This document shows, piece after piece, positions 13,393-29,759 of a stretch of 64,000 bases of DNA. A program made the position numbers and the translations under genes. The stretch's first letter is position 1, and each line of letters opens with the position of its first letter. The notes beneath the pieces were generated by a model. That model had not been told where the DNA came from, did not search any database, and saw only the letters and a program-made list of their open reading frames with translations. This DNA is from Prosthecobacter fusiformis (GTDB taxonomy: Bacteria > Verrucomicrobiota > Verrucomicrobiia > Verrucomicrobiales > Verrucomicrobiaceae), in contig NZ_SOCA01000002.1 in the NCBI RefSeq assembly GCF_004364345.1, positions 695,711-759,710 on the forward strand, in the 5' to 3' direction.

Positions 13393-14649
13393 ATGAATTC
13401 CAATTACGATGTCCTGATCATTGGCGGTGGCCCAGCCGGGGCCAGTGTGGCCACCATTCTGGCGGAGCATGGGCATCGTGCCCTGGTGATTGAGCGCGAA
13501 AAATTTCCTCGGTATCATGTGGGTGAATCGTTGATTCCCTTCACGTTTGGACCGCTGGAACGGCTCGGCATGATCCCGAAGATGAAGAAGAGCCACTTCA
13601 TGAAAAAGTACAGCGTCAGCTTTGTGCAGCCGGACGGGCGGCGTTCCCAGCCATTTTACTTTCACACGCGCTACGATAAGGAAACGATTGCCCAGACATG
13701 GCAGGTCCTGCGTTCAGAATTCGATGAAATGCTGCTGAACAATGCCCGCGAAAAAGGGGCTCATGTCCGCGAAGAAACGACCGTCGTGCAATTGCTGAAA
13801 AATGACAGCGGTGCGGTGATCGGTGTGGAAGTGAAGAACAAGGATGGCTCTATGGAGCAGCTTTATTCTCGGCTAGTGATTGACGCCTCTGGCAAAGAGG
13901 CCTTTGCTTCCAGCCGCCAAGGCTGGCGCGTGGGGGATCCGTTTCTAAACAAGGTGGCCATCTGGACGTATTACAAGGGTTCAAAGCGTGGCGCTGATCT
14001 GGATGAAGGGGCAACGACCATCGCTTTTGTGCCGGATAAAGGCTGGTTTTGGCACATCCCTCAGCACAATGACATGGTGAGCGTGGGAATCGTGGCCGAG
14101 GGTAAATACCTGACGCGCGACGGCGTACGCGATCCCGGAAAAATGTTCCAGCGTGAGATTGGCGAAAACCAGTGGATCAAGGATCATCTCTCCACTGGAG
14201 AATGCACGGGGGAATACTGGCTGACGAGCGAGTATAGCCGCCATTCCAAGTATGGGGCCTCACCCGGCCTGCTGCTGGTGGGAGATGCGTTTGCATTTTT
14301 AGATCCTGTTTTCAGCAGTGGGGTCATGCTGGCACTGAAGAGCGGGGTCTTGGCCGGGGATGCTGTGCATGAGGCTCTGTTGGCCAATGATCCTTCCCCT
14401 GAGCGCTTTGCTGACTATGGAAAACAGATCCGTGAGGGCGTCGAGAACATGCGCAAGCTGGTCTATGCTTTTTATGATCCTAATTTCTCCTTCAAAGATG
14501 TGGTGATGAAGTATCCGGAAGCGGGCGCAGAGCTGACGGATTGTCTTTCAGGTGACCTCAACAAGGACTATACTCCGCTCTGGAACCGTATTCGCGAGTT
14601 TGTGAAACTGCCGGAAGATCTTCCTTATGGAGTGCCCTTGGCGGCATGA
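13393..14649 (+). CDS. Flavin-dependent halogenase-like / geranylgeranyl-reductase-family oxidoreductase
   Basis: 418-residue FAD enzyme. The dinucleotide-binding GGGPAGAS is at 11-18, followed by EREKFPRYHVGESLIP (35-49). A second FAD motif, GDAFAFLDP, is at 297-305. WFWHIP at 218-223 exactly fits the WxWxIP motif that marks flavin-dependent halogenases and their close relatives. Lysines 71-72 before YSVSF lie about where the catalytic Lys of phenolic halogenases falls, but this alignment is tentative. The gene lies 88 bp after the ABC importer on the same strand. Alternatives are a halogenase-fold oxidase or reductase without halogenation activity. Confidence 0.75.
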   Translation: MNSNYDVLIIGGGPAGASVATILAEHGHRALVIEREKFPRYHVGESLIPFTFGPLERLGMIPKMKKSHFMKKYSVSFVQPDGRRSQPFYFHTRYDKETIAQTWQVLRSEFDEMLLNNAREKGAHVREETTVVQLLKNDSGAVIGVEVKNKDGSMEQLYSRLVIDASGKEAFASSRQGWRVGDPFLNKVAIWTYYKGSKRGADLDEGATTIAFVPDKGWFWHIPQHNDMVSVGIVAEGKYLTRDGVRDPGKMFQREIGENQWIKDHLSTGECTGEYWLTSEYSRHSKYGASPGLLLVGDAFAFLDPVFSSGVMLALKSGVLAGDAVHEALLANDPSPERFADYGKQIREGVENMRKLVYAFYDPNFSFKDVVMKYPEAGAELTDCLSGDLNKDYTPLWNRIREFVKLPEDLPYGVPLAA

Positions 14650-15098: not shown

Positions 15099-18000
15099 TT
15101 AGGGTATCATTGCTGGCATGTTCCATTCCGAGGCTCCTGAGCGCGGGATGATCTTCAAGAAGAAGCAGCGGTGGGCAGGAATGAGGAGAGTGGCACTCAC
15201 ATCAGGAACGGAGGCATTGGCTTTCGGGCTCCATGCTCCCGTGGTGCCGCTTTGACGCAGCCAGTAGATCTCATACGTGGATGAGCCTGGAGTCTGATCC
15301 CCGGTCCAAAATTGCAACTGATCCGCCACGGAGCTGTTTCTGCCGACGGTGAAGCCATGAGTGGCGGCAAAGCGGAGCTGCTGGGGTGTGGAGTCCACGG
15401 GCCAAGGGAGAGCCAGCAGGTTGTGAGTCTGGTCCAGCGGGCGAACAAAGGCACCGGTGCGCACATGTCCGGTGAGGGTATAGGTAACAGCGCGTGAAGC
15501 GAGCTTGACCATAACGCCTGTGCCCGGAGGGATGATTCTGGCGTCTGAGGTGGCGTTTGCGGCTGCGCCGACGGTCTGCCATTGATGACGTGTGGAGGAA
15601 AGCTCCAGCCAGCATGTTTCCCAGACATTCTCTTTGAAGAAGAGGACCTGATCAGCCTGCGGATAAGCCATGGCTCCCTGAAGTTGGGACTTGGGGAAAA
15701 CTTGGTTCAAAGTGACATGCGGGCGGATCACGATCCTGGCTCCGGCAATATCGGCGGGCAGAGTCTGGAGGGTCGAATGAGGTGAATTAAGATCCAGCGT
15801 GATGGTTTGACCACTGATGCTAAGAACGTCATAACGATGGCCTGATTGGGACCCATCGCGGACTTCGAGGTAACAGGGAATATTCTCAACAGGCAAGATG
15901 GTGCCTTCCACATTCACCGAAGTGGCGGAGGCATTCGCCACGAATCCGGAATAGATGGGCGCATTGACCCAGCTTACTCCAATGGTCTGGGTGCCTGGAA
16001 CCAAGGCCTGGCGCTGCCAGCACTGGGGAGAGCTGGCGGCGGAGATGCCACTGCTGTGAGTGACGCGGAGACGCACGATGCCACGCTGGAGAGACTGACC
16101 CGTCAGGTGACTGAGACCCGCCCAGGTGAGCTGCTCTTCATTGTTGCCCAGGTCGGTCACTGTCGGTGCCAGGGCCAGCGGCTGCCAGGTCTTCAGATCG
16201 GTGCTGCTTTCCAGCTTGAAGCTGACATTGGTGATGAAACGTGGCCGAACCAAGTGGGCATCTACGCGACCTTCTGGGGTGGTTGTCAGCCACCAGCCAG
16301 CATCATAACGGTCATTGCTGTTCAACGCGTATTCGATGAGGTCATTGACATCGTCACCATCAAAATCGCGATCTTTGGCATTGGAAGAGCCGAGGGTGCC
16401 ATCGGACGGATTGCTGCCGCCACTGCCTTCGCTACCAGAGGCGGGTGGATTACCGACAATCTGGACGTTGTCAAAAGTCGCGGTGCCAAGTTCAGCTGCA
16501 CGGGAAGAAGTCAGGGCCAGTCCCACATACAGGGTGGATGGCATGTTTTCCAGGCGCACCACGCTGACCGTAGTCCAGCTAGTGCCATTGGCTGAAGCAT
16601 AGGAGGTGAACGTATCCCCCTCACGCACCAGTCGCACCCAGTTGTTAGGGGCTGCGCTCAAGGCCGGACCACCCGCGTAATTGGCAGCAGCATTGGCACC
16701 TGACCTCCAGACAAAACCGAAGCCGTTGCCTGCCCCTGTCGGTGTGGTGAAGGTCATGGCATAGCGGGAACCGGCGGTCAGATTTTCACGGAACATCACG
16801 CCCGCTTTCCCCCACGGGTTCTGATTCGTCTGGCTTGTCACGCGTGCGCGGATTTCACCATTCCCGACGAGCTGGCTGGCAGCATAATGAAAACCATCGG
16901 CTGTGAAGAAGATGTCTTCGCCTGAGCCCTTCATCGTGTAAGTGCCCGTGCTGGTGTTGTAACTGGTGGAGCCTGCCACCAGTCCGTTGCCGATGTCCTG
17001 GCCTTGCAGGCTGATCACCACGGCTGGTAAATAACTAACTACAAGTGTGTTTGAGGCCGTGCTTGGAATGGCGCTGCTGTTTTGCGCTGAGCCAGCAGGC
17101 AGAGTGATGGTCACGTTGCCTTCATTTGTAGGAGTGATGGTCAGGCTATATCCTGTGCCACTGCCGATCAGATTAGAAGCGGTGCCATTGGTGACATTAA
17201 AATCTGTGGGTGCCAGGCCGGTGACGTTTTGAGTGAACTGCGCCTGAACGGTGAAGCTGCCTGTCTCAATGGCGGATGCTGATGAGAGGGTGACTGCGGG
17301 TGCGACGGCACTCTGTGCCCCTACGATCTGCACATTGTCAAAAGTAGCCGTGCTAAGCTGGGTGCGTGAGCCGGAAGTAAGCCCGAGTCCCACATAAAGG
17401 GATGAAGGCAGGCCACTCAGAGTCACAGTGTTTACTGTTGTCCACGATGTGCCGTTGGAGGAGGCATAAGCGGTGAGAGTATTACCCACACGCACCAGGC
17501 GGACCCAGTTGTTCGGTGCTGCCTGGAGGGCGGGGCCAGCCGCATAGTTGGTTGCGGCATTGGCCGTTGGTCGCCAGACCATGCCGAAGCCGTTGCCTGC
17601 ACCCGTGGGGGTGGTGAACATCATCGCGTGGCGTGAGCCGCCCGTGAGGTTTTCGCGGAACATAACTCCGGCTTTGGCCCAAGGATTCTGATTGGTCTGG
17701 CTGGTCACACGGGCGCGAATTTCACCATCGCCATTGAGCTGGGTCAGGGAAAACTGGAAGCCATCCTGATTGAAGTAGATGTCCTCACCAGCCCCTTTAA
17801 GGGTATAAACGCCTGCATTGAAAACCGTTGAGCCAGTCACCTCGACTGAGCCGACATCCTGGCCTTGAAGAGAGACAACGACTGGGGGGGAATAAGTGAC
17901 GCTGAGTGTATTCGATGCCGTGTTGGCGATAGCACCTGCATTAACCACCGAGGAAGCCGGAAGAGTGATGGTGACTGCTCCTGGGGCAGTTGGAGTCAGG

Positions 18001-21000
18001 GTAAGGCTATAGCTGGCACCGCTGCCCGTCAGATTGGAAGGTGAGGCATTGGTGATGGTGAAATCCGTAAGGGCTAGGCCTGTGACTTGTTGGCTAAATT
18101 GCGCCTGCACAGTGAAGGGGCCTGTTTCCAAGCCCGATGCAGCGCTAAGGGTGACCTCAGGTGGCAGCACTGTCTGAGTGCCAGTGATCTGCACACGGTC
18201 AAAGACGGCTGTTGTGCTCTGGTTCATCTGACCGGAGGTGGCGGCAAGACCGATGAATACCTGGCTGGAGAGGCCGGTAAGTGTAGCACTGCTGACAGGT
18301 GCCCAGGCATTGCCATCGGCAGAGACGTAACCAGTCAGCACATTGCCTGCACGGACGATGCGGACCCAGTTGTCCGGCACGGGATTCAGTGCTGGGCCTT
18401 GAGCGTAATTGGTCGTCGCATTGGCGGTGGGCCTCCAGACCATGCCGAAACCATTGCCAGCAGCCGGAGGTGTGATGAAGGTGGTGGCATGGCGTGAACC
18501 TGCGGTCAGATTTTCACGAATCATGACGCCCGCTTTTGACCAGGAATTGGTATTGCCAAAGCTGCGTACACGGGCGCGAATTTCACCATCGCCATTGAGC
18601 AGCACCTTGGTGAAATGAAAGCCGTCTTCTTCGAAGAAAATATCCCTCCCTGATGCAGTGAGTGTATAGGTGCCCGTTGCGGAATCAAAGGTGGTGGAGC
18701 CAGCCATATTCAGCTCTCCGATGTCCTGGCCTACCAGCACCGGGGTTGTTGGTGGAGTGGTGGTCTGGAAGGTGCGGCTGATGACATTGGAGACTAGGTT
18801 GCCGACGTTCGAAGCATCCTGAGCAACGTTGGCCGCCAGACTGAGGGTGACATTGGCGGTCGGTGTAACGGTGAAACTGAAACTGGAGCCGCTACCCGTC
18901 AGGGCACTGACGGTGCCTCCGGTGATCGTGATATCGGTCAGGGCGAAACCGGTGACTGGAAGGCTGAATGTCGCGCTGACTGTGAATGGTGTATTGACGG
19001 TCTCCGGTGCAGTGCTGGCGAGGGTCACTGTGACTGGCACTGGAGCAGCGGTGGGGGCATCATCAATCTGCTGAAGGTAAGCCGTGAGCTTGCTCAAATC
19101 TGCCTCCGTAAGGGTGACGCCGTTGTGTGCGCGGACAGCATCCGCCAGTGTGGTGGCAGATCCGTCATGTAAGTAAGGAGCGGTGCCCCAGAGGCCACGC
19201 AGAGTGGGGACATCGAAACCAGTCAGAGCGCCATTGAGGCGCTTGCCGCTCGATGCTTTGCGGGTGCCGATGTCACTAAAGACATTGAGTGCACTGTTGG
19301 TGAAACCTGTGCCGCTGTGGCAACTGGCGCAGTTTTGCTGGCGGAAGATTTTTTCACCTTCCACAGCGGTGGCTGTAAGGCTGCCATCGCCGCTGCGATG
19401 CGGACTGCGTGGTTCTGTGGTGAGTGATTTTACATAGGCCGCCAGAGCATCCAGATCTGTACTGATACCGGCTTTAGAATCGCCCAGCGGCTGGTTGCGT
19501 GTGCCGGTGTTGAACTGAGCATCGCTCATTAATCCAGTACCACCGGCGAGGTTGCGAATCTGGCCTTCAAAGTCATGCACTTCATCAAAGTTTCCGGACC
19601 AGTGCAGCATCCCTTGATTACCATGACCACGCAGAGTGATGGTATTACGCAGACCTTCGCCAAAACCTGTGAGATCCCAGGTGCGTCCGTCATGACCACC
19701 GTCGTTATGGCAGCCTGCGCAGGAAATGTATTCCTGGAGGGCCACGCGGCTGTCGAGAGCATCGTAGAAGAGCTGCTTGCCATTCAAAAGCTGGGGAGTC
19801 AGCTTTTCGGTAGAAACAGTGCTCACGGTAGCGACCGTGGCCGGGAGCTGTCCGCCACCGCCAAGAATGCCGCTGACGTCATGGACCGTGACAGTGCGGT
19901 CCATAAAATTTTGCACATACAGAGTGCGACCATCTGGAGAAAGGGCGAGTCCCTGTGGGGCGCGACCCACGCTGAAGCGCATCAACTCCTCTTCAGAACG
20001 GGCATCCACAATGGCCACCGAACGGCTGCTTTCCAAAGCGACGAAAAGATAACCACCCCAAGGATCAAAGGCGGCAGCGCTGGGAATGCCGGCATTGTCA
20101 AAGTCCAGCCGGGCAGAAGTATCTTCAGCCTGAGTGGCCAGATTGATGCGGCTGGCGATGGCACGCAACGTTTGGTCATGATTCAGGCCCACTCCATTGC
20201 GCAGCGTACCACGCTTGATGTTATCCTGTTTGGAAGGAACCCAGGCGGAAAGACCGTCGGGAGAGATGGAGGCAGCACCCAGGTAGTTTGGGATGCCACT
20301 GGCTGAGGTGGGGGTGTCTTCAGCATTGCTGTTTTGCAGGATGATGGTGCGCTCGATGGCCAATGAACTGGCGTTGACGACGATGACTTCGCCACCTTTG
20401 CCAGCCGGATTAGGGGTGGCTGTGTTTTCACCCGGAACTGGAGGGGAGATGAAACGGCTGATGTACAAGCGTGTGCCATCGGCACTGACAGATACATGGC
20501 GCGCATGTTGGCCGACTGTCTGGGTGCTGAGCGTGGCACCTGTGGCGGCATTCAGTTTCAAGAGTTGTCCGCTGCCTTCCAGGACCACATAGGCCGCACT
20601 GCCGTTAGGGTCAAAAGCAAGGCCGAAAGGGCGTGATCCACGAGGCAAGGCCACTGTGGCTGCCACCGCATAAGTGCTGCTGTTGAGGATGGAAAGAGTC
20701 GCGCTTTCCACATTTGTCACCCAAGCGCGACCATCGGGAGCGATGGCCACGCTGCGGGGGGCGCTGCCCACGGATGTTTCAGCCAGTTTGGCACGGGTCA
20801 TAGCATCAAGAATCGTTACGCTGTCGCTGTCAGGATTCACCACCCAAACTCGGTCATTCCCTGTCGCACGATCTTCAAAAGCGATGCTGGTAGAGTTCGT
20901 GGGTTTTTTAGCCGTGAGCTGCGGGTGAATGACTTGGTAAGCACTCGTGGAGGTAACGGCGCCTGTGTCATCGGTAGCCGTCAAGGTCACGAGGAAACGG

Positions 21001-23954
21001 CCAGGTGTCGTGTAAGGATGCAGGACGAGGGTGCTGCTGCTGTAAGCAGTGACCGGAGTACCATCGCCAAAATCCCAGCGATAGCGTGGATTGGCTCCAC
21101 CACTGCTGCGCGGGACAAAATTAACACTGACGCCAGCCAGCACGGGTGTGGTGACTAGCGGCTGCAAGGTCAAGGTATTGCTGATGGTCCACGTAAAAGT
21201 GGCGCTGACCGGTGTGGTATAACCATCGGTGACGGTGACGGTAGTCGTATAGATGGCTGCTGCTGTCGGTATGCCAGTGATAGCTCCAGTGCTCGAATTG
21301 ATCGCCAACCCGGCAGGCAGTCCAGTGGCGCTGAAGGTGAGGGTGTCCTGATTGATATCTGTAGCGTTGATGGGGAGATTGACAGCGATGCCCATGACGC
21401 CGGTCTGCGATCCAGGACTGGTGAGGACAGGAGCCGTCGGCAGCGCGAAAGCATTGCTGAAAAAGCTCCAGCTTAGCACTTCATGGGTATTCGTACTGCC
21501 ACCTGTGGCACCGGAGAAACCGATCCACGCATTCGGGCCCACTGAGGCGGGCAGGTCAATGTTTGGTACGGTGAGAACAGGAGTTGCCGGCCTGGTGGTC
21601 ACCACTCCCTGGGCCAAGTAAATCCGCAGTGTATTGGTGGCACCATCGTATTCCGCCCAGAGCGTATGACTGGCACCGTTTTCGAGATCAAAAGGAGCTG
21701 TATAGGTACCGAGGTGAGGAGAGACGATGCCATTGGCCACGACTCCAATGTGATTGGCATTCGGATCCGTTCCTCCGGCGTATGTATCCAGCTCAATCGC
21801 CAAACTTTCCATAATGCCTTCGTAGCCCAGTCCACCACCAGGGCTGCCAAGGGCATCCGCACGATCATTCTGGATCATGAATGTCATGCCATCGGCACCG
21901 TCTCCGGAGCCGTTCATACGGAAGACGAACCGAGTGCTGAAAGAGGTGCCATTGGAAAGGGGCAGGGGAGTCTTCAAGAAAGCTGTGCCTGCCAGATTAG
22001 CTCCATTCGGCGTGAGCTGAAGAATGCTGCCGTTGACGCTGGCGCTGCCGTTGAGCTGAAGGGAGCTGTTGCTGCCGGTGAAGCTGGCAAAGTCATGGGT
22101 GACATTGGCTGGCGTGATGGTCCAGTTGAAGGTGGTGCTGGCGCTGGTGATTCCATCCGTCACCGTCACACGTGGTGTGTAAGCACCCGTGATGGTGGGG
22201 GTGCCGCTGATGATGCCGGTGGTGCCTTGGATGACCATGCCGGGAGGCAGTGAAGAGGCGCTGAAGGTCAGGGTGCCATTGCCTGGGGCCACCCCATAGA
22301 TGGCGAGGACTGTCGCGGCATTTTTAGCACTGAACTGGTCACCCGGACTTGCGATGGAAACGGTGGTCGCGGGGTCCACCTGAATGATCTTCGACTCTGA
22401 ATAGGCTCCGCTGGATCCAATGCCAAAGAGCATCCAGTAGCCTGGGGTCATGACATTGATGTTGGCATGCGCAGTCACGCTGTAGATGCCTGGGGAGGTT
22501 TCAGTAAAAGGCAGGCTGAGATAGCGCAGATCCGTATTCATCGAATGCGTCTGCGAAGACATCTTGATGAAGCTAAACTTGGTCAGTCCAGGGGTGGCCT
22601 GAACGGTGAAAACAGTGCCTGGGCCGATGTAGCTGGGGGCCTGCTGAATCACTGGCCGCACGGCAGCAGAGCCATCCGCAGCGAACAACATCGGTGGCGT
22701 ATAAATCTGGGCATCGCGATGGTCGGCACTGTTGCCTGAAAGGCCACCCCCGCCTGACCAGACGCGGCCATCCGGCAGCAATAAGGCCAGGGAGTGATAA
22801 TTACGCGGCACGCTCATGTCGGTGACTTCACGCCACAGACCAGTGGTCGGGTTCCAGATCTCGGGGGAAAGGATGCTGCCGGTGTCATTGAATTTGAGGC
22901 CTGATGTATTGCCACCGATGACCATCACTTCGCCGTTAGGCAGAATGACGGAGTTCACAAACTGGCGCACATACTTCATGGAAGCGGCAGACTTGACCAC
23001 TGGGGTGCCGCTGCGGATATCAATGGTGAAGGCCAGATTGGTGCTGGTGCCAGTGGAGCTGTCGCTCGGATTCGAATTGGTGTTCAGCGAGCCGCCAGCC
23101 ACTAGGATGCGGCCTTCATCGTACATCGCAAAGCAGCCTTCCTTGGGGAAATGGGTGCCGGGGACATTGACCCCGCTGTAAGTCAGGCTGCCATTGCCAG
23201 CCGTCGTCACCCAGTTCATCTGGCGGGTAGGACCGCCATGGAAAAGACGTCCGTCGGGTGCCACAACCATGAGCGGATGCCAGCGGGTGACGTAGCCAGG
23301 CTGGCTGACGACTGTCGCCCAATTGATGCTGCTCAGGCGTTTCCAGCCGTCAGCGGAGGTCCATCGTTCAGCGGTGTTGGTGCCACCGTCTCCCGTGACT
23401 GTAAAAACGCTGCCATCTGTCATGGCCACGCTCGTGTTGTACCAGCGGCCATCATTCATGTTCGGCAGGGCAGACCACTGACTGGTGCGCCAGTTGAAAA
23501 TGCTGCTCAGACGCACGGTATTGCGCCCGCCGTTGACCACCACGCGACCATCCGGCAGCATGGAAGTACCACCGCAAAACATGTCATGGCGGTTGTTGTT
23601 GATCTCCGTGAAAACACCAGTCGCCGGATTCCAAACGGCAGCATAGGTGAACTCGGCTCCGACCGGGAACGTCGTGCGCTGGTTTGATGAAAACGTCAGC
23701 AGCCTGCCATCCGGCAAGGTGGCGGCTGTCACGGGGATGTGAGGGGTCCAGCTGATCACCGGACCCCACTGACCGACTAGGCTGCGCTGGGTCGGTGTAG
23801 GCGCTGGGCCTGTTGGGGAGATGAAAGCTGGGGCCAGCATCTGGGCATCTGCTGAAAGCTGATCATCCAGACCGTGATCATCCGCAGCGAAAGCCAGGCT
23901 GCTGAGAAACAGCACAGCTGTGAGGCAAAGGCGGGAGTAAAGGAACTTCATCAT
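15099..23954 (-). CDS. Giant secreted copper radical oxidase with lectin, Ig, PKD, beta-propeller and di-heme cytochrome domains
   Basis: 2951 residues. Signal peptide 1-24. Residues 40-530 are a galactose oxidase/glyoxal oxidase kelch fold ending in a DUF1929-like domain. All copper-site residues are present: Cys127 (FCGG) and Tyr172 (WYNTS) for the thioether cofactor, Tyr386-His387 (NYHSLALLLPDG) and His470 (THSMNTD). Their spacing nearly matches the fungal enzyme. Then come an Ig domain (535-616), a legume-lectin-like domain (618-836), Ig (840-923), PKD (925-1011) and a YVTN-type propeller (1020-1365). A di-heme cytochrome c unit (1375-1630) follows, with CAGCH at 1412-1416 and CASCH at 1542-1546. 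After it lie an Ig-like domain, three DUF1349-like modules, an Asp-rich calcium-type motif near 2522 and a C-terminal region resembling TIGR02597-type proteins. The start ATG overlaps the upstream stop. Confidence 0.88.
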   Translation of the reverse strand: MMKFLYSRLCLTAVLFLSSLAFAADDHGLDDQLSADAQMLAPAFISPTGPAPTPTQRSLVGQWGPVISWTPHIPVTAATLPDGRLLTFSSNQRTTFPVGAEFTYAAVWNPATGVFTEINNNRHDMFCGGTSMLPDGRVVVNGGRNTVRLSSIFNWRTSQWSALPNMNDGRWYNTSVAMTDGSVFTVTGDGGTNTAERWTSADGWKRLSSINWATVVSQPGYVTRWHPLMVVAPDGRLFHGGPTRQMNWVTTAGNGSLTYSGVNVPGTHFPKEGCFAMYDEGRILVAGGSLNTNSNPSDSSTGTSTNLAFTIDIRSGTPVVKSAASMKYVRQFVNSVILPNGEVMVIGGNTSGLKFNDTGSILSPEIWNPTTGLWREVTDMSVPRNYHSLALLLPDGRVWSGGGGLSGNSADHRDAQIYTPPMLFAADGSAAVRPVIQQAPSYIGPGTVFTVQATPGLTKFSFIKMSSQTHSMNTDLRYLSLPFTETSPGIYSVTAHANINVMTPGYWMLFGIGSSGAYSESKIIQVDPATTVSIASPGDQFSAKNAATVLAIYGVAPGNGTLTFSASSLPPGMVIQGTTGIISGTPTITGAYTPRVTVTDGITSASTTFNWTITPANVTHDFASFTGSNSSLQLNGSASVNGSILQLTPNGANLAGTAFLKTPLPLSNGTSFSTRFVFRMNGSGDGADGMTFMIQNDRADALGSPGGGLGYEGIMESLAIELDTYAGGTDPNANHIGVVANGIVSPHLGTYTAPFDLENGASHTLWAEYDGATNTLRIYLAQGVVTTRPATPVLTVPNIDLPASVGPNAWIGFSGATGGSTNTHEVLSWSFFSNAFALPTAPVLTSPGSQTGVMGIAVNLPINATDINQDTLTFSATGLPAGLAINSSTGAITGIPTAAAIYTTTVTVTDGYTTPVSATFTWTISNTLTLQPLVTTPVLAGVSVNFVPRSSGGANPRYRWDFGDGTPVTAYSSSTLVLHPYTTPGRFLVTLTATDDTGAVTSTSAYQVIHPQLTAKKPTNSTSIAFEDRATGNDRVWVVNPDSDSVTILDAMTRAKLAETSVGSAPRSVAIAPDGRAWVTNVESATLSILNSSTYAVAATVALPRGSRPFGLAFDPNGSAAYVVLEGSGQLLKLNAATGATLSTQTVGQHARHVSVSADGTRLYISRFISPPVPGENTATPNPAGKGGEVIVVNASSLAIERTIILQNSNAEDTPTSASGIPNYLGAASISPDGLSAWVPSKQDNIKRGTLRNGVGLNHDQTLRAIASRINLATQAEDTSARLDFDNAGIPSAAAFDPWGGYLFVALESSRSVAIVDARSEEELMRFSVGRAPQGLALSPDGRTLYVQNFMDRTVTVHDVSGILGGGGQLPATVATVSTVSTEKLTPQLLNGKQLFYDALDSRVALQEYISCAGCHNDGGHDGRTWDLTGFGEGLRNTITLRGHGNQGMLHWSGNFDEVHDFEGQIRNLAGGTGLMSDAQFNTGTRNQPLGDSKAGISTDLDALAAYVKSLTTEPRSPHRSGDGSLTATAVEGEKIFRQQNCASCHSGTGFTNSALNVFSDIGTRKASSGKRLNGALTGFDVPTLRGLWGTAPYLHDGSATTLADAVRAHNGVTLTEADLSKLTAYLQQIDDAPTAAPVPVTVTLASTAPETVNTPFTVSATFSLPVTGFALTDITITGGTVSALTGSGSSFSFTVTPTANVTLSLAANVAQDASNVGNLVSNVISRTFQTTTPPTTPVLVGQDIGELNMAGSTTFDSATGTYTLTASGRDIFFEEDGFHFTKVLLNGDGEIRARVRSFGNTNSWSKAGVMIRENLTAGSRHATTFITPPAAGNGFGMVWRPTANATTNYAQGPALNPVPDNWVRIVRAGNVLTGYVSADGNAWAPVSSATLTGLSSQVFIGLAATSGQMNQSTTAVFDRVQITGTQTVLPPEVTLSAASGLETGPFTVQAQFSQQVTGLALTDFTITNASPSNLTGSGASYSLTLTPTAPGAVTITLPASSVVNAGAIANTASNTLSVTYSPPVVVSLQGQDVGSVEVTGSTVFNAGVYTLKGAGEDIYFNQDGFQFSLTQLNGDGEIRARVTSQTNQNPWAKAGVMFRENLTGGSRHAMMFTTPTGAGNGFGMVWRPTANAATNYAAGPALQAAPNNWVRLVRVGNTLTAYASSNGTSWTTVNTVTLSGLPSSLYVGLGLTSGSRTQLSTATFDNVQIVGAQSAVAPAVTLSSASAIETGSFTVQAQFTQNVTGLAPTDFNVTNGTASNLIGSGTGYSLTITPTNEGNVTITLPAGSAQNSSAIPSTASNTLVVSYLPAVVISLQGQDIGNGLVAGSTSYNTSTGTYTMKGSGEDIFFTADGFHYAASQLVGNGEIRARVTSQTNQNPWGKAGVMFRENLTAGSRYAMTFTTPTGAGNGFGFVWRSGANAAANYAGGPALSAAPNNWVRLVREGDTFTSYASANGTSWTTVSVVRLENMPSTLYVGLALTSSRAAELGTATFDNVQIVGNPPASGSEGSGGSNPSDGTLGSSNAKDRDFDGDDVNDLIEYALNSNDRYDAGWWLTTTPEGRVDAHLVRPRFITNVSFKLESSTDLKTWQPLALAPTVTDLGNNEEQLTWAGLSHLTGQSLQRGIVRLRVTHSSGISAASSPQCWQRQALVPGTQTIGVSWVNAPIYSGFVANASATSVNVEGTILPVENIPCYLEVRDGSQSGHRYDVLSISGQTITLDLNSPHSTLQTLPADIAGARIVIRPHVTLNQVFPKSQLQGAMAYPQADQVLFFKENVWETCWLELSSTRHQWQTVGAAANATSDARIIPPGTGVMVKLASRAVTYTLTGHVRTGAFVRPLDQTHNLLALPWPVDSTPQQLRFAATHGFTVGRNSSVADQLQFWTGDQTPGSSTYEIYWLRQSGTTGAWSPKANASVPDVSATLLIPAHRCFFLKIIPRSGASEWNMPAMIP
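16450..18745 (-). repeat. Three tandem lectin/DUF1349-like modules alternating with Ig-like domains
   Basis: Within the giant gene, three copies of a roughly 550-bp module (about 18745-18170, 17875-17330 and 17015-16460) encode near-identical runs such as GDGEIRARV, WAKAGVMFRENLT, GNGFGMVWR and NNWVRLVR. The first two are each followed by an Ig-like unit with ETGxFTVQAQF. Copies 2 and 3 are the most alike, which suggests recent duplication. Such modules usually bind carbohydrate or mediate adhesion. Confidence 0.85.
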
Positions 23955-25720
23955 GGGCGTTGAGCGAGCTTGGTCTTGGCTGGGTCGGCGATGAATGCCT
24001 CATCAGTGAGCGTTTTTAGAAAGGCGACGAGGGCGGATTTTTCCTCGGTGGTCAGTTGCAGACCGGCATCGGGATGCTTGGCCAGATTAGGGTCCAGAGT
24101 ATCACTGCGCTTCACGCCACTGCTGTAATGCTCCACGACTTCCTCCAGCGTGGTGAAACGACCATCATGCATGTAAGGAGCAGTGACCGCGATGTTGCGT
24201 AGGCTGGGGGTCTTGAACTTGCCCTTGTCCGCCGGATTGCCTGTTACTATCATGCGCCCCAGATCTGCCGGGGTGAGTTCAAGACCATTGTTCTTGAACT
24301 GATGATCTGTAAAAAGGGTGCCTCCGTGACAATGGAAGCAGTCAGCACCGCGCAGTCCACGGGCGGGGTCAAACTCAGTGACGAAAAGTTGGAGTCCGCG
24401 TTTCTCTTCTTCCGTCATCTGCGCCACTTTGCGTGCGGCACGGTCAAAGCGGGATTCCTGCGAGACGAGAGTTAACAAATATTGCTCCAGGGATTTGGCG
24501 ATGCGTTCAGAGGTGATTTCAGGTGTGCCGAAAGCGTTGTTAAAGCTGGCTGATGTATCGGAAATTTTTTCTACCACGCGTTCCAGCGTTTCGTTCATTT
24601 CGTGCTGGTCCTGAATCGGCATCAGAACTTGCTCACGCAGAGTGCTGGCGCGGCCATCCCAAAAAAAGGACTGGTCCCAGGCCAGATTAAACAGCGGCAT
24701 GGCGTGGCGTTTTCCCACCTGGCCTATGGCACCGATGCTGTATTGGCGTGGATCGCTAAAAGCCGCATCCCGGCTGTGGCAACTGGCACACGACTGACTG
24801 TTATTGATGGAGAGGCGTGGATCGTTAAAAAGTTTCTCCCCCAGTGCCACGCCTTCCTGAGTCAGCGGGTTATCAGCCGGGAACTGCACCCGTGGAAAAC
24901 GGCTGGTGATGGCTATCGGGTAAGGGTGCGTACCCGCTGGCAGTTCCTGAGACTTAGCTTCGCTATTTTTTACCGCAGACTGGTAAAGGTCATATTTGAC
25001 TGAGTGAAGGCTGAAGGCGCGGGCGATGTTTCTTTTCAGAAGGGGGACAATCAGGTCTCCGTCACGGGAGTGAGTGGATGTTCCATCGCGGGTGAAATCG
25101 ATGCCCTCCAACAGGTGGGCGGCATCTAGGACGAGCTTCAAAGTTAGAGGACCGCCACCTTGAAAATTCACCGGGATCTCCACTCGTACATAATTGGGTG
25201 TCCGGGCGAGGTGAAAAGCAAAACCGCCGAGTTCACCATCCGGTCTCATCCATCGGCCTTCCAAAGCCATGAAGACATACCCACCTTGCCAGCCCCAGTG
25301 GAGGCCACAAACGTTGGGATGCAGGGGGTGATCCGCGGGCAGGAGGTTGGGATCTGCCCGGTCTTGGGCGGCGGGGATACCCACATCAAAGCGAATCGCT
25401 TTGAATTCTTCCGTCGGTATGCCGTCTGCGCGGGTTTTTAGCCGACCTTTTTCTAGGCTGAAGAACGCTGACCAGTTCTCGGACTCGATCCAGGTGCCGT
25501 CTATACGTTCAAGAGCGAGTGAAGAAAGAAGAAAGTCCAGACGCTCAACGATAGGTGTCCCCTGAGTGGCTTGGGAACGAGGCGAGGTAGTCTCCAAAGT
25601 ATCCTGATTCCAGGATGGGAGGATCTCAAGATCCAGCACCTGAGCCTGGGCATTGCTCAAAAAGAAGACGGCTAGCCCTGTCAGGCAAAGCCACAATCTC
25701 GTTATTGAACATGAAATCAT
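23951..25720 (-). CDS. MbnP-like copper-binding domain fused to MbnH/MauG-type di-heme peroxidase
   Basis: 589 residues, exported (signal peptide about 1-27). Residues about 28-235 resemble MbnP-like proteins: FDVGIP, a DP-rich HPLHP stretch, and HWGWQGGYVFMALEG (141-155) with Trp142 and Trp144. Residues about 270-585 are a bacterial di-heme cytochrome c peroxidase/MauG domain with CASCH (311-315), CFHCH (461-465), DPRLSINNSQSCASCHS, and a C-terminal TPSLRNIAVTAPYMHDGR. In known systems MbnP and MbnH are separate proteins and MbnH oxidises a Trp of MbnP to kynurenine to make a copper site; here they are one chain. The stop overlaps the start of the copper-oxidase gene (ATGA). Confidence 0.8.
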   Translation of the reverse strand: MISCSITRLWLCLTGLAVFFLSNAQAQVLDLEILPSWNQDTLETTSPRSQATQGTPIVERLDFLLSSLALERIDGTWIESENWSAFFSLEKGRLKTRADGIPTEEFKAIRFDVGIPAAQDRADPNLLPADHPLHPNVCGLHWGWQGGYVFMALEGRWMRPDGELGGFAFHLARTPNYVRVEIPVNFQGGGPLTLKLVLDAAHLLEGIDFTRDGTSTHSRDGDLIVPLLKRNIARAFSLHSVKYDLYQSAVKNSEAKSQELPAGTHPYPIAITSRFPRVQFPADNPLTQEGVALGEKLFNDPRLSINNSQSCASCHSRDAAFSDPRQYSIGAIGQVGKRHAMPLFNLAWDQSFFWDGRASTLREQVLMPIQDQHEMNETLERVVEKISDTSASFNNAFGTPEITSERIAKSLEQYLLTLVSQESRFDRAARKVAQMTEEEKRGLQLFVTEFDPARGLRGADCFHCHGGTLFTDHQFKNNGLELTPADLGRMIVTGNPADKGKFKTPSLRNIAVTAPYMHDGRFTTLEEVVEHYSSGVKRSDTLDPNLAKHPDAGLQLTTEEKSALVAFLKTLTDEAFIADPAKTKLAQRP

Positions 25721-26746: not shown

Positions 26747-27910
26747 ATGCGCACGCCGCCCCCCTCGCTCCCCGAGAAGGACTTCCGATCTCACGCCCCG
26801 GGCTTTTGGAAAGACAAACTAGTTCCCCAACAAGACTGGAATTCCTCAGCTTGGCAACTCCGCAACCGTGTCACCACCCTAGCGGGTCTGGAAGAGCACC
26901 TCACTTTGACCGACGAAGAGCGGGCCGGAGTGCTGCTCAGCGGAAACAAGTTGGCCATGGCCATCACTCCGCATTACTTCAATCTCATTGATCCCGAGGA
27001 TCCAGAGGACCCGATCCGTCGGCAAGTCATTCCCCGGATTGAAGAGACCTGGGAAGATCCGGATGAAATGGCTGACCCCTGCGGTGAGGACAGTCACATG
27101 CCCGTCCCTGGGCTGGTTCATCGTTATCCAGATCGCGTTCTTTTCCTGGTCACAGACCGCTGCGCCAGTTACTGCCGCTATTGTACACGCAGTCGCGTCG
27201 TCAGCGGCGTGGGTGAACAGGAACTGCACACGGATTACGAAGCCGTGTTCCGATATTTGGAAAAGCATGAAGAGGTTCGGGATGTCCTCCTCAGTGGTGG
27301 GGATCCGCTCCTCTTTAGTGATGGTAAACTTGAGGCCATCCTCAAGCGCCTTCGCGCTATTCCACACATTGAGTTCCTTCGCATCGGCAGCCGCGTCCCC
27401 ATTTTCCTTCCGCAAAGGATCACGCCGGAGCTGTGCCAAATGCTCCAGAAGTATCATCCTTTGTGGCTGAGTATTCACACCAATCATCCGCGCGAACTCA
27501 CGACTGAGGTCAAAGCGGGGCTGGAAATGCTGGCCAACCATGGTGTGCCGCTGGGCAATCAAAGTGTTTTGCTACGAGGCGTCAATGACGATGCGGACGT
27601 CATGAAATCCCTCGTTCATAAGCTGCTGATGTGCCGCGTCAGGCCTTACTACCTGTATCAGTGCGATCTTATCCAGGGCAGTTCGCACCTCCGTGCCAGC
27701 GTCAGCACCGGTATAGAGATCATTGAGCAGTTGCGTGGTCACACCACCGGCTACGGGGTCCCTCAATTTGTCATTGATGCTCCTGGTGGCGGTGGCAAGG
27801 TCCCCGTGAACCCGGATTATGTCCTGCTTCGCGACGAGCAACGCACCATTGTCCGCAATTTCGAGGGTCGCACCTTTGAGTATCCGGAACCTGCGATGGT
27901 AAGAGTGTAA
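26747..27910 (+). CDS. kamA: Lysine 2,3-aminomutase-family radical SAM enzyme
   Basis: 387 residues. The radical SAM cluster motif CASYCRYC (Cys139, 143 and 146) and the downstream SGGDPLLFSD motif are intact. GGGGKVPVNPDY contains the probable PLP Lys351. The family converts lysine to beta-lysine. The shorter EpmB branch modifies elongation factor P, but no epmA or efp is nearby and the N-terminal extension (WKDKLVPQQDWNSSAWQLRNR) is of KamA type. Beta-lysine products can act as compatible solutes. It lies 29 bp before the ABC ATPase gene. Confidence 0.88.
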   Translation: MRTPPPSLPEKDFRSHAPGFWKDKLVPQQDWNSSAWQLRNRVTTLAGLEEHLTLTDEERAGVLLSGNKLAMAITPHYFNLIDPEDPEDPIRRQVIPRIEETWEDPDEMADPCGEDSHMPVPGLVHRYPDRVLFLVTDRCASYCRYCTRSRVVSGVGEQELHTDYEAVFRYLEKHEEVRDVLLSGGDPLLFSDGKLEAILKRLRAIPHIEFLRIGSRVPIFLPQRITPELCQMLQKYHPLWLSIHTNHPRELTTEVKAGLEMLANHGVPLGNQSVLLRGVNDDADVMKSLVHKLLMCRVRPYYLYQCDLIQGSSHLRASVSTGIEIIEQLRGHTTGYGVPQFVIDAPGGGGKVPVNPDYVLLRDEQRTIVRNFEGRTFEYPEPAMVRV

Positions 27911-27939
27911 TCTGGATGTAGGATTGGCGCTGGCCAACC

Positions 27940-28587
27940 ATGCTTTCCCTCCACGATATCCGTTTTCAATACCCAGGCGGTGCTTTCTGTCTGGCGTTGA
28001 AAACGCTGGAGGTCCGGGCAGGGGAGTCACTCGTTATTTTAGGACCCAGTGGCGGTGGTAAAACCACGCTGCTGCGCCTGATGACGGGGCTTTTATCTCC
28101 AGATTCGGGGGAGGTGATCTGCGGGGAGACTCGTTTAAATCGACTTTCGCCCGAACAAAGGAGGCGCTTTCGCTTGGAAAAAGCAGGGCTTGTTTTCCAA
28201 GATTTTGCCCTTTTGGACTATCTGACTGTGGAGGAGAATATCCTCCTGCCTTCTCGTTTCAGCCCTTTATCCGGTACCATTTCTGCCTATGCGCGGGAAC
28301 TGGCGGACCGTCTGGAAATCGCCTCACATTGGCGGAGGCGCGCCGCATACCTTTCCCAAGGCGAGCGGCAACGCGTTGCCATAGCCCGCGCCCTTGCTCA
28401 TCGTCCTCAGTATGTATTTGCCGATGAACCCACCGCCTCCCTGGATACAGGCCGCCGAGGATTGGTGATGGATTTGTTGTTGGACTATACCCAGGAAACA
28501 CAGGCGAGCCTGGTGATGGTGACTCATGATGCGGAACTGATGCCGCTTTTCCAAAAACAATTGCGTGTGGAGGACCTGACGGAATGA
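27940..28587 (+). CDS. ABC transporter ATPase, LolD/MacB-like
   Basis: 215 residues. Walker A GPSGGGKTT at 35-43, Walker B FADEPTASLD at 161-170, and a signature reading LSQGE (139-143) with Gln in place of the first Gly. The switch His lies in MVTHDAEL. This is the ATPase type that works with FtsX-like permeases to move lipoproteins, peptides or signals rather than nutrients. The stop overlaps the permease start by 4 bp (ATGA). Confidence 0.88.
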   Translation: MLSLHDIRFQYPGGAFCLALKTLEVRAGESLVILGPSGGGKTTLLRLMTGLLSPDSGEVICGETRLNRLSPEQRRRFRLEKAGLVFQDFALLDYLTVEENILLPSRFSPLSGTISAYARELADRLEIASHWRRRAAYLSQGERQRVAIARALAHRPQYVFADEPTASLDTGRRGLVMDLLLDYTQETQASLVMVTHDAELMPLFQKQLRVEDLTE

Positions 28588-29759
28588 TCGCGGCCTGCGT
28601 TCACCTCGCCTGGCGTTACGTTGACAGGCATCTGGGGCAGACACTGCTGCTTGCCGCCGCATTGGGCCTTGTTCTGGCACTGCCGCTTTCCATTCGTGTC
28701 ATCGTCCGCGCGGCAGAGACTGCGATGCGTGCCCGTGCGGATTCGACGCCTCAGGTCATCGGCGGGCGTGGCAGTGCCCTGGATCTCCTGCTGAGCGCGC
28801 TTTATTTTAAGCGCCAGCCGCTGCCTGCGCTTACGGTCAAAACTCTTGATGAAGTCCGTTCCTCCAAACTCGGGACTGCCATCCCGCTTTACACCCGGTT
28901 TCATTCTCAGGAGGCCCCCATCGTCGGCACCAGCCTTGACTATTTTCCCTTTCGGAAACTGTCTCTCAAAGAAGGCCGGATGTTTGGCCGGTTGGGGGAC
29001 TGCGTCATCGGTGCGGGGCTGGCCAATAAGCGTGGCTTAGGCATAGGCGATCACATTTTTTCATCCCAGGAGCAGGTGTTTGATCTCGCTGGCATATATC
29101 CTCTGAAGATGCGCATCACTGGTATCTTGGCTGCCAGTGGTACTTCCGACGATGAGGCGGTGTTTGCCGATCTCAAGACCACCTGGCTCATAGAGGGCCT
29201 CGCCCACGGACACGATGATCTCGTCAGCGATGATGCCATTCTGAAAAAGGAAGATGGTAACGTAATTGGCAATGCCAGCGTGCGCATGTTCAACCAGGTC
29301 ACCGATAAAAACCTCAGCGGTTTCCATTTTCACGGAGATACCCATGCCTATCCACTGAGCTCCATTTTAATCAATCCCACCGACGCCAAGGCAGAGGCCA
29401 TCCTTGCAGGGCGTTATCAAAAAAGTGATCATCCCGCCCAGATCATCCGTCCGCTGGACGAATTTCAGGCTCTCATGGGAACCCTTTTTCAGGTCGAATC
29501 TCTCGCGCATGTCATTCTCGCCCTCCTCGCTTTGGCGGCGGGCAGTGTGGCTGTTTTGGTGTTTGCACTGACATTTCGTTTAAGAAAACGCGAGTTTGCG
29601 ACACTGGATGACCTGGGTATTTCCCGAAACGCCCTCGTTTTGACCAAAGGCATGGAGGTTATTTTAGTGACCATCATGGCCCTATTTTTCGCCATGATTT
29701 TGACCTCCATCGTCTGGCTGAATGCGGATAAAGGCGTATCCTTGATGCTGCGATTATAG
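28584..29759 (+). CDS. FtsX-like ABC transporter permease
   Basis: 391 residues. One N-terminal membrane helix (about 18-38), then a large extracytoplasmic domain (about 40-305), then two C-terminal helices (about 312-335 and 354-375), with the RLRKREFATLDDLGISRN coupling segment between them. FtsX/LolC/MacB permeases normally have a further C-terminal helix; this one stops at GVSLMLRL. It may be shortened, or a distinct subfamily. It forms a translationally coupled pair with the LolD-like ATPase. Confidence 0.78.
   Translation: MIAACVHLAWRYVDRHLGQTLLLAAALGLVLALPLSIRVIVRAAETAMRARADSTPQVIGGRGSALDLLLSALYFKRQPLPALTVKTLDEVRSSKLGTAIPLYTRFHSQEAPIVGTSLDYFPFRKLSLKEGRMFGRLGDCVIGAGLANKRGLGIGDHIFSSQEQVFDLAGIYPLKMRITGILAASGTSDDEAVFADLKTTWLIEGLAHGHDDLVSDDAILKKEDGNVIGNASVRMFNQVTDKNLSGFHFHGDTHAYPLSSILINPTDAKAEAILAGRYQKSDHPAQIIRPLDEFQALMGTLFQVESLAHVILALLALAAGSVAVLVFALTFRLRKREFATLDDLGISRNALVLTKGMEVILVTIMALFFAMILTSIVWLNADKGVSLMLRL

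Follow-up and report, generated by a model that had tools for sequence, protein, structure and literature searches.

The 64,000-nucleotide stretch of Prosthecobacter fusiformis DNA analysed here (the window; contig NZ_SOCA01000002.1, positions 695,711 to 759,710) carries two overlapping minus-strand genes from families that are nearly always inherited together. One encodes a giant copper radical oxidase (CRO), P0001, and the other encodes P0002, in which an MbnP-type and an MbnH-type domain are fused. Both parts come from known families, and their pairing appears undescribed: no relevant description of the combination was found in a partial literature, which is weak evidence of novelty. We propose, with a probability of about one half, that P0002 is a dedicated maturation and activation partner of the P0001 oxidase. 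The surrounding genome is 5.8 Mb in size and 99.9% complete.

15099..23954, minus strand: P0001, giant CRO, predicted secreted, 2951 amino acids (aa) (open reading frame, translation, Pfam/NCBIfam domains)
23951..25720, minus strand: P0002, predicted secreted MbnP-MbnH fusion, 589 aa (open reading frame, translation, Pfam MbnP and CCP_MauG, TIGR04039)
23951..23954, minus strand: ATGA overlap, stop of P0002 and start of P0001 (sequence)

The preliminary description of this DNA had reported an ATGA overlap between the two genes, and both open reading frames were found where it had placed them on the minus strand. A -4 overlap recurs in 21 of the 28 linked pairs examined and is not due to chance; it predicts translational coupling of P0002 and P0001. 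Both proteins begin with a hydrophobic leader ending in Ala-x-Ala, and because these leaders are signal-like, export of both is predicted from sequence alone.

We found MbnP in 49 and the CRO E-set domain in 37 of the 68 genomes of the host family; in these genomes, an MbnP-MbnH gene on the same strand immediately precedes at least 24 of the CRO genes. An even sample of the phylum (388 genomes) contained the CRO family in 7 genomes and MbnP in 22, and each of the seven CRO genes, from three families, is immediately preceded by an MbnP-MbnH gene in the same orientation (Fisher test for co-occurrence 7e-10, uncorrected for relatedness). A scan of named-species genomes produced 54 relatives, 53 of them in Verrucomicrobiota records, and showed that Roseibacillus, Haloferula and a Spartobacteria metagenome-assembled genome carry the same pair; it also brought up a single CRO in Colwellia that has no MbnP. 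The preliminary description had held that its idea would fail if the pair were confined to this strain or if the genes were rarely adjacent in relatives. Both situations were looked for; the pair is widespread and its genes are usually adjacent, and the occurrence of pairs in the family, named-species and phylum genome sets rules out a strain-specific curiosity.

The search it had proposed, for CRO genes beside MbnP-MbnH fusions, revealed an association of one MbnP-MbnH clade with the fused oxidase. In a tree of 99 MbnP-MbnH sequences, every CRO-linked sequence falls on a single well-supported branch. When the host-family genomes were scored for this clade and for the CRO family, 34 had both, 2 and 3 had only one of the two, and 29 had neither (p = 1.6e-13); the other MbnP-MbnH clades showed no association with the CRO family (p = 0.34). 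Two of the five mismatches stem from a short fragment or a contig edge: genome G008 has a truncated clade member on another contig, and the oxidase of G006 is apparently at a contig edge (L147). In four genomes the shared locus holds the MbnP-MbnH gene but no giant gene, and an unlinked giant oxidase gene lies elsewhere. Plain CROs without the propeller and di-haem parts (G061, Colwellia) were found in genomes without MbnP. The clade tracks the fused oxidase and not CROs in general. A general association of MbnP with any CRO is ruled out by the plain CROs encountered, which have no MbnP, and the view that all MbnP-MbnH fusions are alike is ruled out by the clade-specific association.

This distribution bears on the possibility that P0002 is an independent copper scavenger, paired with the oxidase through co-regulation under copper limitation and making no contact with it. 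MbnP-like CorA is a copper-repressed surface copper binder (PMC3912023), and MbnP-MbnH fusions are found in many other contexts, both of which fit such a role. However, general copper homeostasis would not account for the clade-specific link to the fused CRO, which holds whether or not the two genes are neighbours, or for the start-stop overlap shared by 21 of 28 pairs, and we consider independent scavenging improbable.

The oxidase part of P0001 was compared with solved galactose oxidases and with its own homologues.

22365..23864, minus strand: galactose-oxidase-like CRO domain, residues 31-530 (PDB 9g8h 333 bits, 1gof ~231 bits; 21 homologues aligned)
23574..23576, minus strand: C127, thioether partner of the Cys-Tyr cofactor (aligned to galactose oxidase HDMFC; invariant in 21/21)
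23439..23444, minus strand: W171-Y172, second-shell Trp immediately ahead of the crosslinked Tyr (invariant in 21/21; glyoxal/aldehyde-oxidase arrangement)
22794..22799, minus strand: Y386-H387, axial Tyr and His copper ligands (galactose oxidase alignment; invariant in 21/21)
22545..22547, minus strand: H470, copper ligand in the E-set domain (galactose oxidase alignment; invariant in 21/21)

Pfam and NCBIfam matches along P0001 were to GO-like_E_set (PF09118), Kelch, legume lectin, He_PIG, PKD, YVTN/YncE propeller, CCP_MauG/cytochrome c, Big_12 and three copies of DUF1349. The galactose-oxidase copper site had been described as intact, and it is: besides the Kelch and GO-like E-set domains that mark a CRO, P0001 keeps the Cys-Tyr pair, the axial Tyr and the two His ligands. 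A Trp directly before the crosslinked Tyr is reported for GlxA and FgrAldOx and not for galactose oxidase (PMC13094651). Since W171 immediately precedes Y172, P0001 is probably a copper radical oxidase of the aldehyde/glyoxal type, although the whole domain is still nearer in sequence to galactose oxidases.

After the CRO domain, P0001 continues with an immunoglobulin-like (Ig) domain, a lectin domain, a second Ig domain, a PKD domain, a seven-bladed propeller and a two-haem domain. Nearly all homologues of sufficient length for a judgement keep the oxidase, propeller and di-haem parts in one protein; the lectin and Ig parts differ between homologues. At one locus (L116:8953-15702) two adjacent reading frames in the same frame, one for the oxidase and one for the propeller-di-haem part, stand 30 bases apart in place of the giant gene, through either a natural split or a nonsense mutation.

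21435..22109, minus strand: L-type (legume) lectin domain, residues 616-840 (Pfam Lectin_legB 5e-39; in some homologues only)
19845..20894, minus strand: seven-bladed YVTN/YncE-type propeller, residues 1021-1370 (Pfam/NCBIfam repeats; AlphaFold2 model, Foldseek match to hydrazine synthase beta 5c2v_B)
19059..19829, minus strand: di-haem domain, residues 1376-1632 (CCP_MauG/cytochrome c matches; closest PDB sequences 5c2v_C, hydrazine synthase gamma, and 3o5c, cytochrome c peroxidase (CCP))
19707..19721, minus strand: haem-binding CAGCH, residues 1412-1416 (Cys/Cys/His invariant in 38/38)
19317..19331, minus strand: haem-binding CASCH, residues 1542-1546 (Cys/Cys/His invariant in 38/38)
19125..19127, minus strand: H1610, at the position of MauG Tyr294 and CCP Met (alignment; invariant in 38/38)
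16449..19034, minus strand: three Big_12 and DUF1349 (concanavalin-like) repeats (Pfam)
15102..16394, minus strand: conserved C-terminal region, residues 2521-2951 (present in most family homologues)

P0001 had been credited with a di-haem unit of its own, and it contains exactly two CxxCH motifs, at 1412 and 1542; the refinement is that the sixth-ligand position is not MauG-like. W1452 and Q1465 are kept in 38/38 homologues, the Tyr or Met sixth ligand of MauG and CCP is replaced by H1610, and no pocket Glu was found in the alignment ten residues past Gln1465. In the same search the entry for engineered Y294H MauG scored 22.0 bits against this domain and the wild type 19.4 bits, a slightly better score that is expected if H1610 is the equivalent position. 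Because of the His at the Tyr294 position and the lack of the pocket Glu, the domain looks like an electron-transfer or specialised redox module and not a standard peroxidase.

Such a module raises the possibility that the giant works as a dehydrogenase, in which electrons from the copper site leave through the fused di-haem domain, P0002 is the next carrier and little H2O2 is made. The retention of the haem motifs, Trp1452 and Gln1465 beside the His substitution and the missing Glu is consistent with this, as are the propeller-then-di-haem order, which resembles the hydrazine synthase beta and gamma subunits, and the presence of P0002-like fusions next to GSDH genes, whose relatives linked to pyrroloquinoline quinone (PQQ) require an electron acceptor. 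Known CROs, however, react with O2 directly, the copper and haem domains of P0001 are kept apart by linker domains of some 850 residues, and the di-haem part of the AlphaFold2 model has low confidence, too poor for judging haem geometry. We regard this as the least likely of the explanations considered. Identity of P0001 as a hydrazine synthase was rejected, its score being 88.7 bits against an NCBIfam fusion-model cut-off of 1250.

P0002 was examined in the same way, using 35 fusion homologues and a second alignment of 28 sequences, drawn from the named genomes and the window.

25082..25636, minus strand: MbnP domain, residues 29-213 (Pfam MbnP 1e-23, 84 bits; model matches MbnP 7l6g, Z 17.6 over 200 residues)
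25289..25297, minus strand: W142-G-W144, candidate kynurenine precursor (W142 in 35/35, W144 in 34/35; aligned to MbnP WNW)
23975..24880, minus strand: MbnH domain, residues 281-582 (TIGR04039 247 bits; PDB 6e1c E 3e-46; model against 6e1c Z 24.8)
24776..24790, minus strand: haem-binding CASCH of MbnH, residues 311-315 (Cys/Cys/His invariant in the 35 homologues and in the 28)
24326..24340, minus strand: haem-binding CFHCH of MbnH, residues 461-465 (Cys/Cys/His invariant in the 35 homologues and in the 28)
24125..24127, minus strand: Y532, MauG/MbnH-type sixth haem ligand (invariant in 35/35; aligned to the Tyr of MbnH 6e1c)

The MbnP half scores above the Pfam cut-off and carries the WxW motif kept in 34/35 fusions; Trp142, His170 and His217 are invariant in the 35. 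The MbnH half has two c-type haem motifs, the Tyr sixth ligand and the pocket residues Gln364 and Glu374, which are invariant, as is Trp354, in the 35 fusions and in the 28-sequence alignment. The MbnP/MbnH-type fusion pattern given in the preliminary description thus stands, with one refinement: since the MbnH half scores under the NCBIfam equivalog cut-off (TIGR04039, 247 against 363 bits), it is best read as a fused, divergent member. The MbnP half is likewise under the equivalog cut-off of TIGR04052. The arrangement of MbnP relative to MbnH in the model is uncertain (pTM 0.63).

The invariance of the MauG-type residues of MbnH also suits a simpler role, in which P0002 is mainly a peroxidase partner that brings the oxidase by oxidation from its resting Cu(II) form into the active radical form and removes H2O2, and is not a copper donor. 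Where fungi pair a CRO gene with a peroxidase gene, activation of the CRO by the peroxidase depends on the dose, as is supported by electron paramagnetic resonance (PMC9770985). The fungal peroxidases have an unrelated fold, however, and a purely peroxidative role does not account for the retention, in almost all fusions, of an MbnP domain together with its WxW motif and His residues. We consider it unlikely, but rank it second, after a maturation and activation partner and ahead of independent copper scavenging and of a haem-wired dehydrogenase.

In the methanotroph MbnP/MbnH pair, MbnH oxidises a Trp of MbnP to kynurenine for copper binding. If P0002 is a maturation and activation partner, its MbnH half would use peroxide to oxidise the candidate Trp of the MbnP half, creating a copper site; the fusion would then pass copper to the oxidase, allowing the Cys-Tyr cofactor to form. 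In addition or instead, the oxidising power of its haems could raise the oxidase to, or keep it in, the radical state, consuming H2O2 made by the oxidase. The CRO receiving this service would carry glycan-binding domains and a propeller-di-haem module for electron transfer on the same chain. This assignment is favoured because there are precedents in the GlxA and fungal systems, because P0002 combines a putative copper site with a haem enzyme of peroxide-using type in one chain, and because neither DyP nor PCuAC was found in the 7 host-genus genomes tested, this genome included. The invariant residues of both proteins, the pairing across the phylum sample, the clade-specific co-occurrence in the host family, the four genomes with unlinked giants and the plain CROs in genomes without MbnP also speak for it.

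Several observations weigh against a dedicated partner. The host genome encodes Sco, a possible copper supplier; neither His131, a candidate copper ligand, nor Trp144 is conserved without exception; and the co-occurrence statistics are inflated by relatedness, for which they are uncorrected. Moreover, MbnP-MbnH fusions also adjoin PQQ-type GSDH, DUF1501/DUF1800 and lactate permease genes, and given these other partners their role is not restricted to CROs. The preliminary description had suggested that the peroxidase fusion supplies or activates copper for the oxidase or uses the H2O2 that the oxidase makes, a suggestion that our analysis partly supports.

A bolder version is a self-sustaining loop, in which H2O2 from the CRO lets MbnH build the kynurenine copper site of MbnP, which in turn loads and activates more oxidase; more generally, MbnP-MbnH proteins outside methanotrophs would be maturation partners of giant secreted oxidoreductases of the CRO and GSDH types. 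We regard this extension as doubtful.

Other surroundings of the two families were also recorded. Another fusion clade lies directly upstream of a gene for a GSDH (PQQ sugar dehydrogenase-like) protein of ~840 aa (L063, L066, L067, L073, L074, L189, L195), with DUF1501 and giant DUF1800 genes nearby on the opposite strand, and a further clade adjoins an L-lactate permease gene on the opposite strand (L077, L078, L164, L169, L185). One genome has a second giant, with GSDH, two CxxCH motifs and five DUF1349 repeats, directly upstream of the MbnP-MbnH/oxidase pair (L128:410-7516, L182). The unlinked giant oxidases L130-L141 have a constant divergent neighbour of ~700 aa, a gyrase/topoisomerase IV A gene in the checked member L134, and in the group L104, L105, L112 the unlinked giant of L105 and L112 adjoins an isopropylmalate dehydrogenase family gene. 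In the window, the pair is flanked by a Trp-halogenase-like flavoprotein gene (13393-14649) and by a lysine-2,3-aminomutase-like radical SAM gene followed by an ABC/MacB-type transporter (26747-29759); a winged-helix gene is also among the flanking genes. These flanking genes were rejected as parts of the system, not being constant neighbours in the gene orders of relatives.

MbnP/MbnH pairs are widespread, and their only settled context is methanotroph copper uptake. An MbnP-MbnH clade that follows one defined copper enzyme provides a concrete client, and a general role as maturation partner would, if true, explain a pair whose role has been called mysterious. CROs are of biocatalytic interest and often need activation by a peroxidase, and an oxidase fused to its own cytochrome module is unusual. 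Our results suggest a possible third independent solution to CRO maturation and activation, after Streptomyces Sco and DtpA and the fungal tandem peroxidases.

Among known systems, hydrazine synthase beta/gamma shares with P0001 a propeller followed by a di-haem domain and is among the closest solved sequence relatives of the latter; it has no CRO. The methanotroph MbnP/MbnH proteins (MopE/SACCP, CorA/CorB) belong to the same families and folds as P0002 (7l6g, 6e1c), with a candidate kynurenine Trp and a Tyr-ligated di-haem, and the copper site of CorA/MopE is related to MbnP/MbnH chemistry (PMC3912023). They are, however, two proteins whose links are to methanobactin operons, to TonB transporters or to the uptake of copper (PMC3621798, PMC3912023), whereas P0002 is one polypeptide and its partner is a CRO. 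The fungal tandem peroxidase-alcohol oxidase pairs, in which the CRO is activated by a secreted peroxidase from the neighbouring gene (PMC9770985), resemble ours in the conserved adjacency of a CRO gene and a secreted haem peroxidase gene, and differ in having a class II peroxidase, head-to-head genes, no MbnP-type copper-binding domain and eukaryotic hosts. In Streptomyces lividans, GlxA needs a copper chaperone, Sco, and a haem peroxidase, DtpA, for its maturation; copper corrects the defect in either case, and the H2O2 that GlxA produces converts DtpA to compound I (PMC4736821). GlxA is likewise a bacterial CRO with a copper carrier (Sco/ECuC) and a secreted haem peroxidase (DtpA), roles that are proposed for P0002. 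GlxA lacks the fused propeller and di-haem domain of P0001, and its partners are separate proteins of unrelated families (Sco, ECuC, DyP) without an overlapping gene pair, whereas in P0002 the proposed copper and haem functions lie in one chain.

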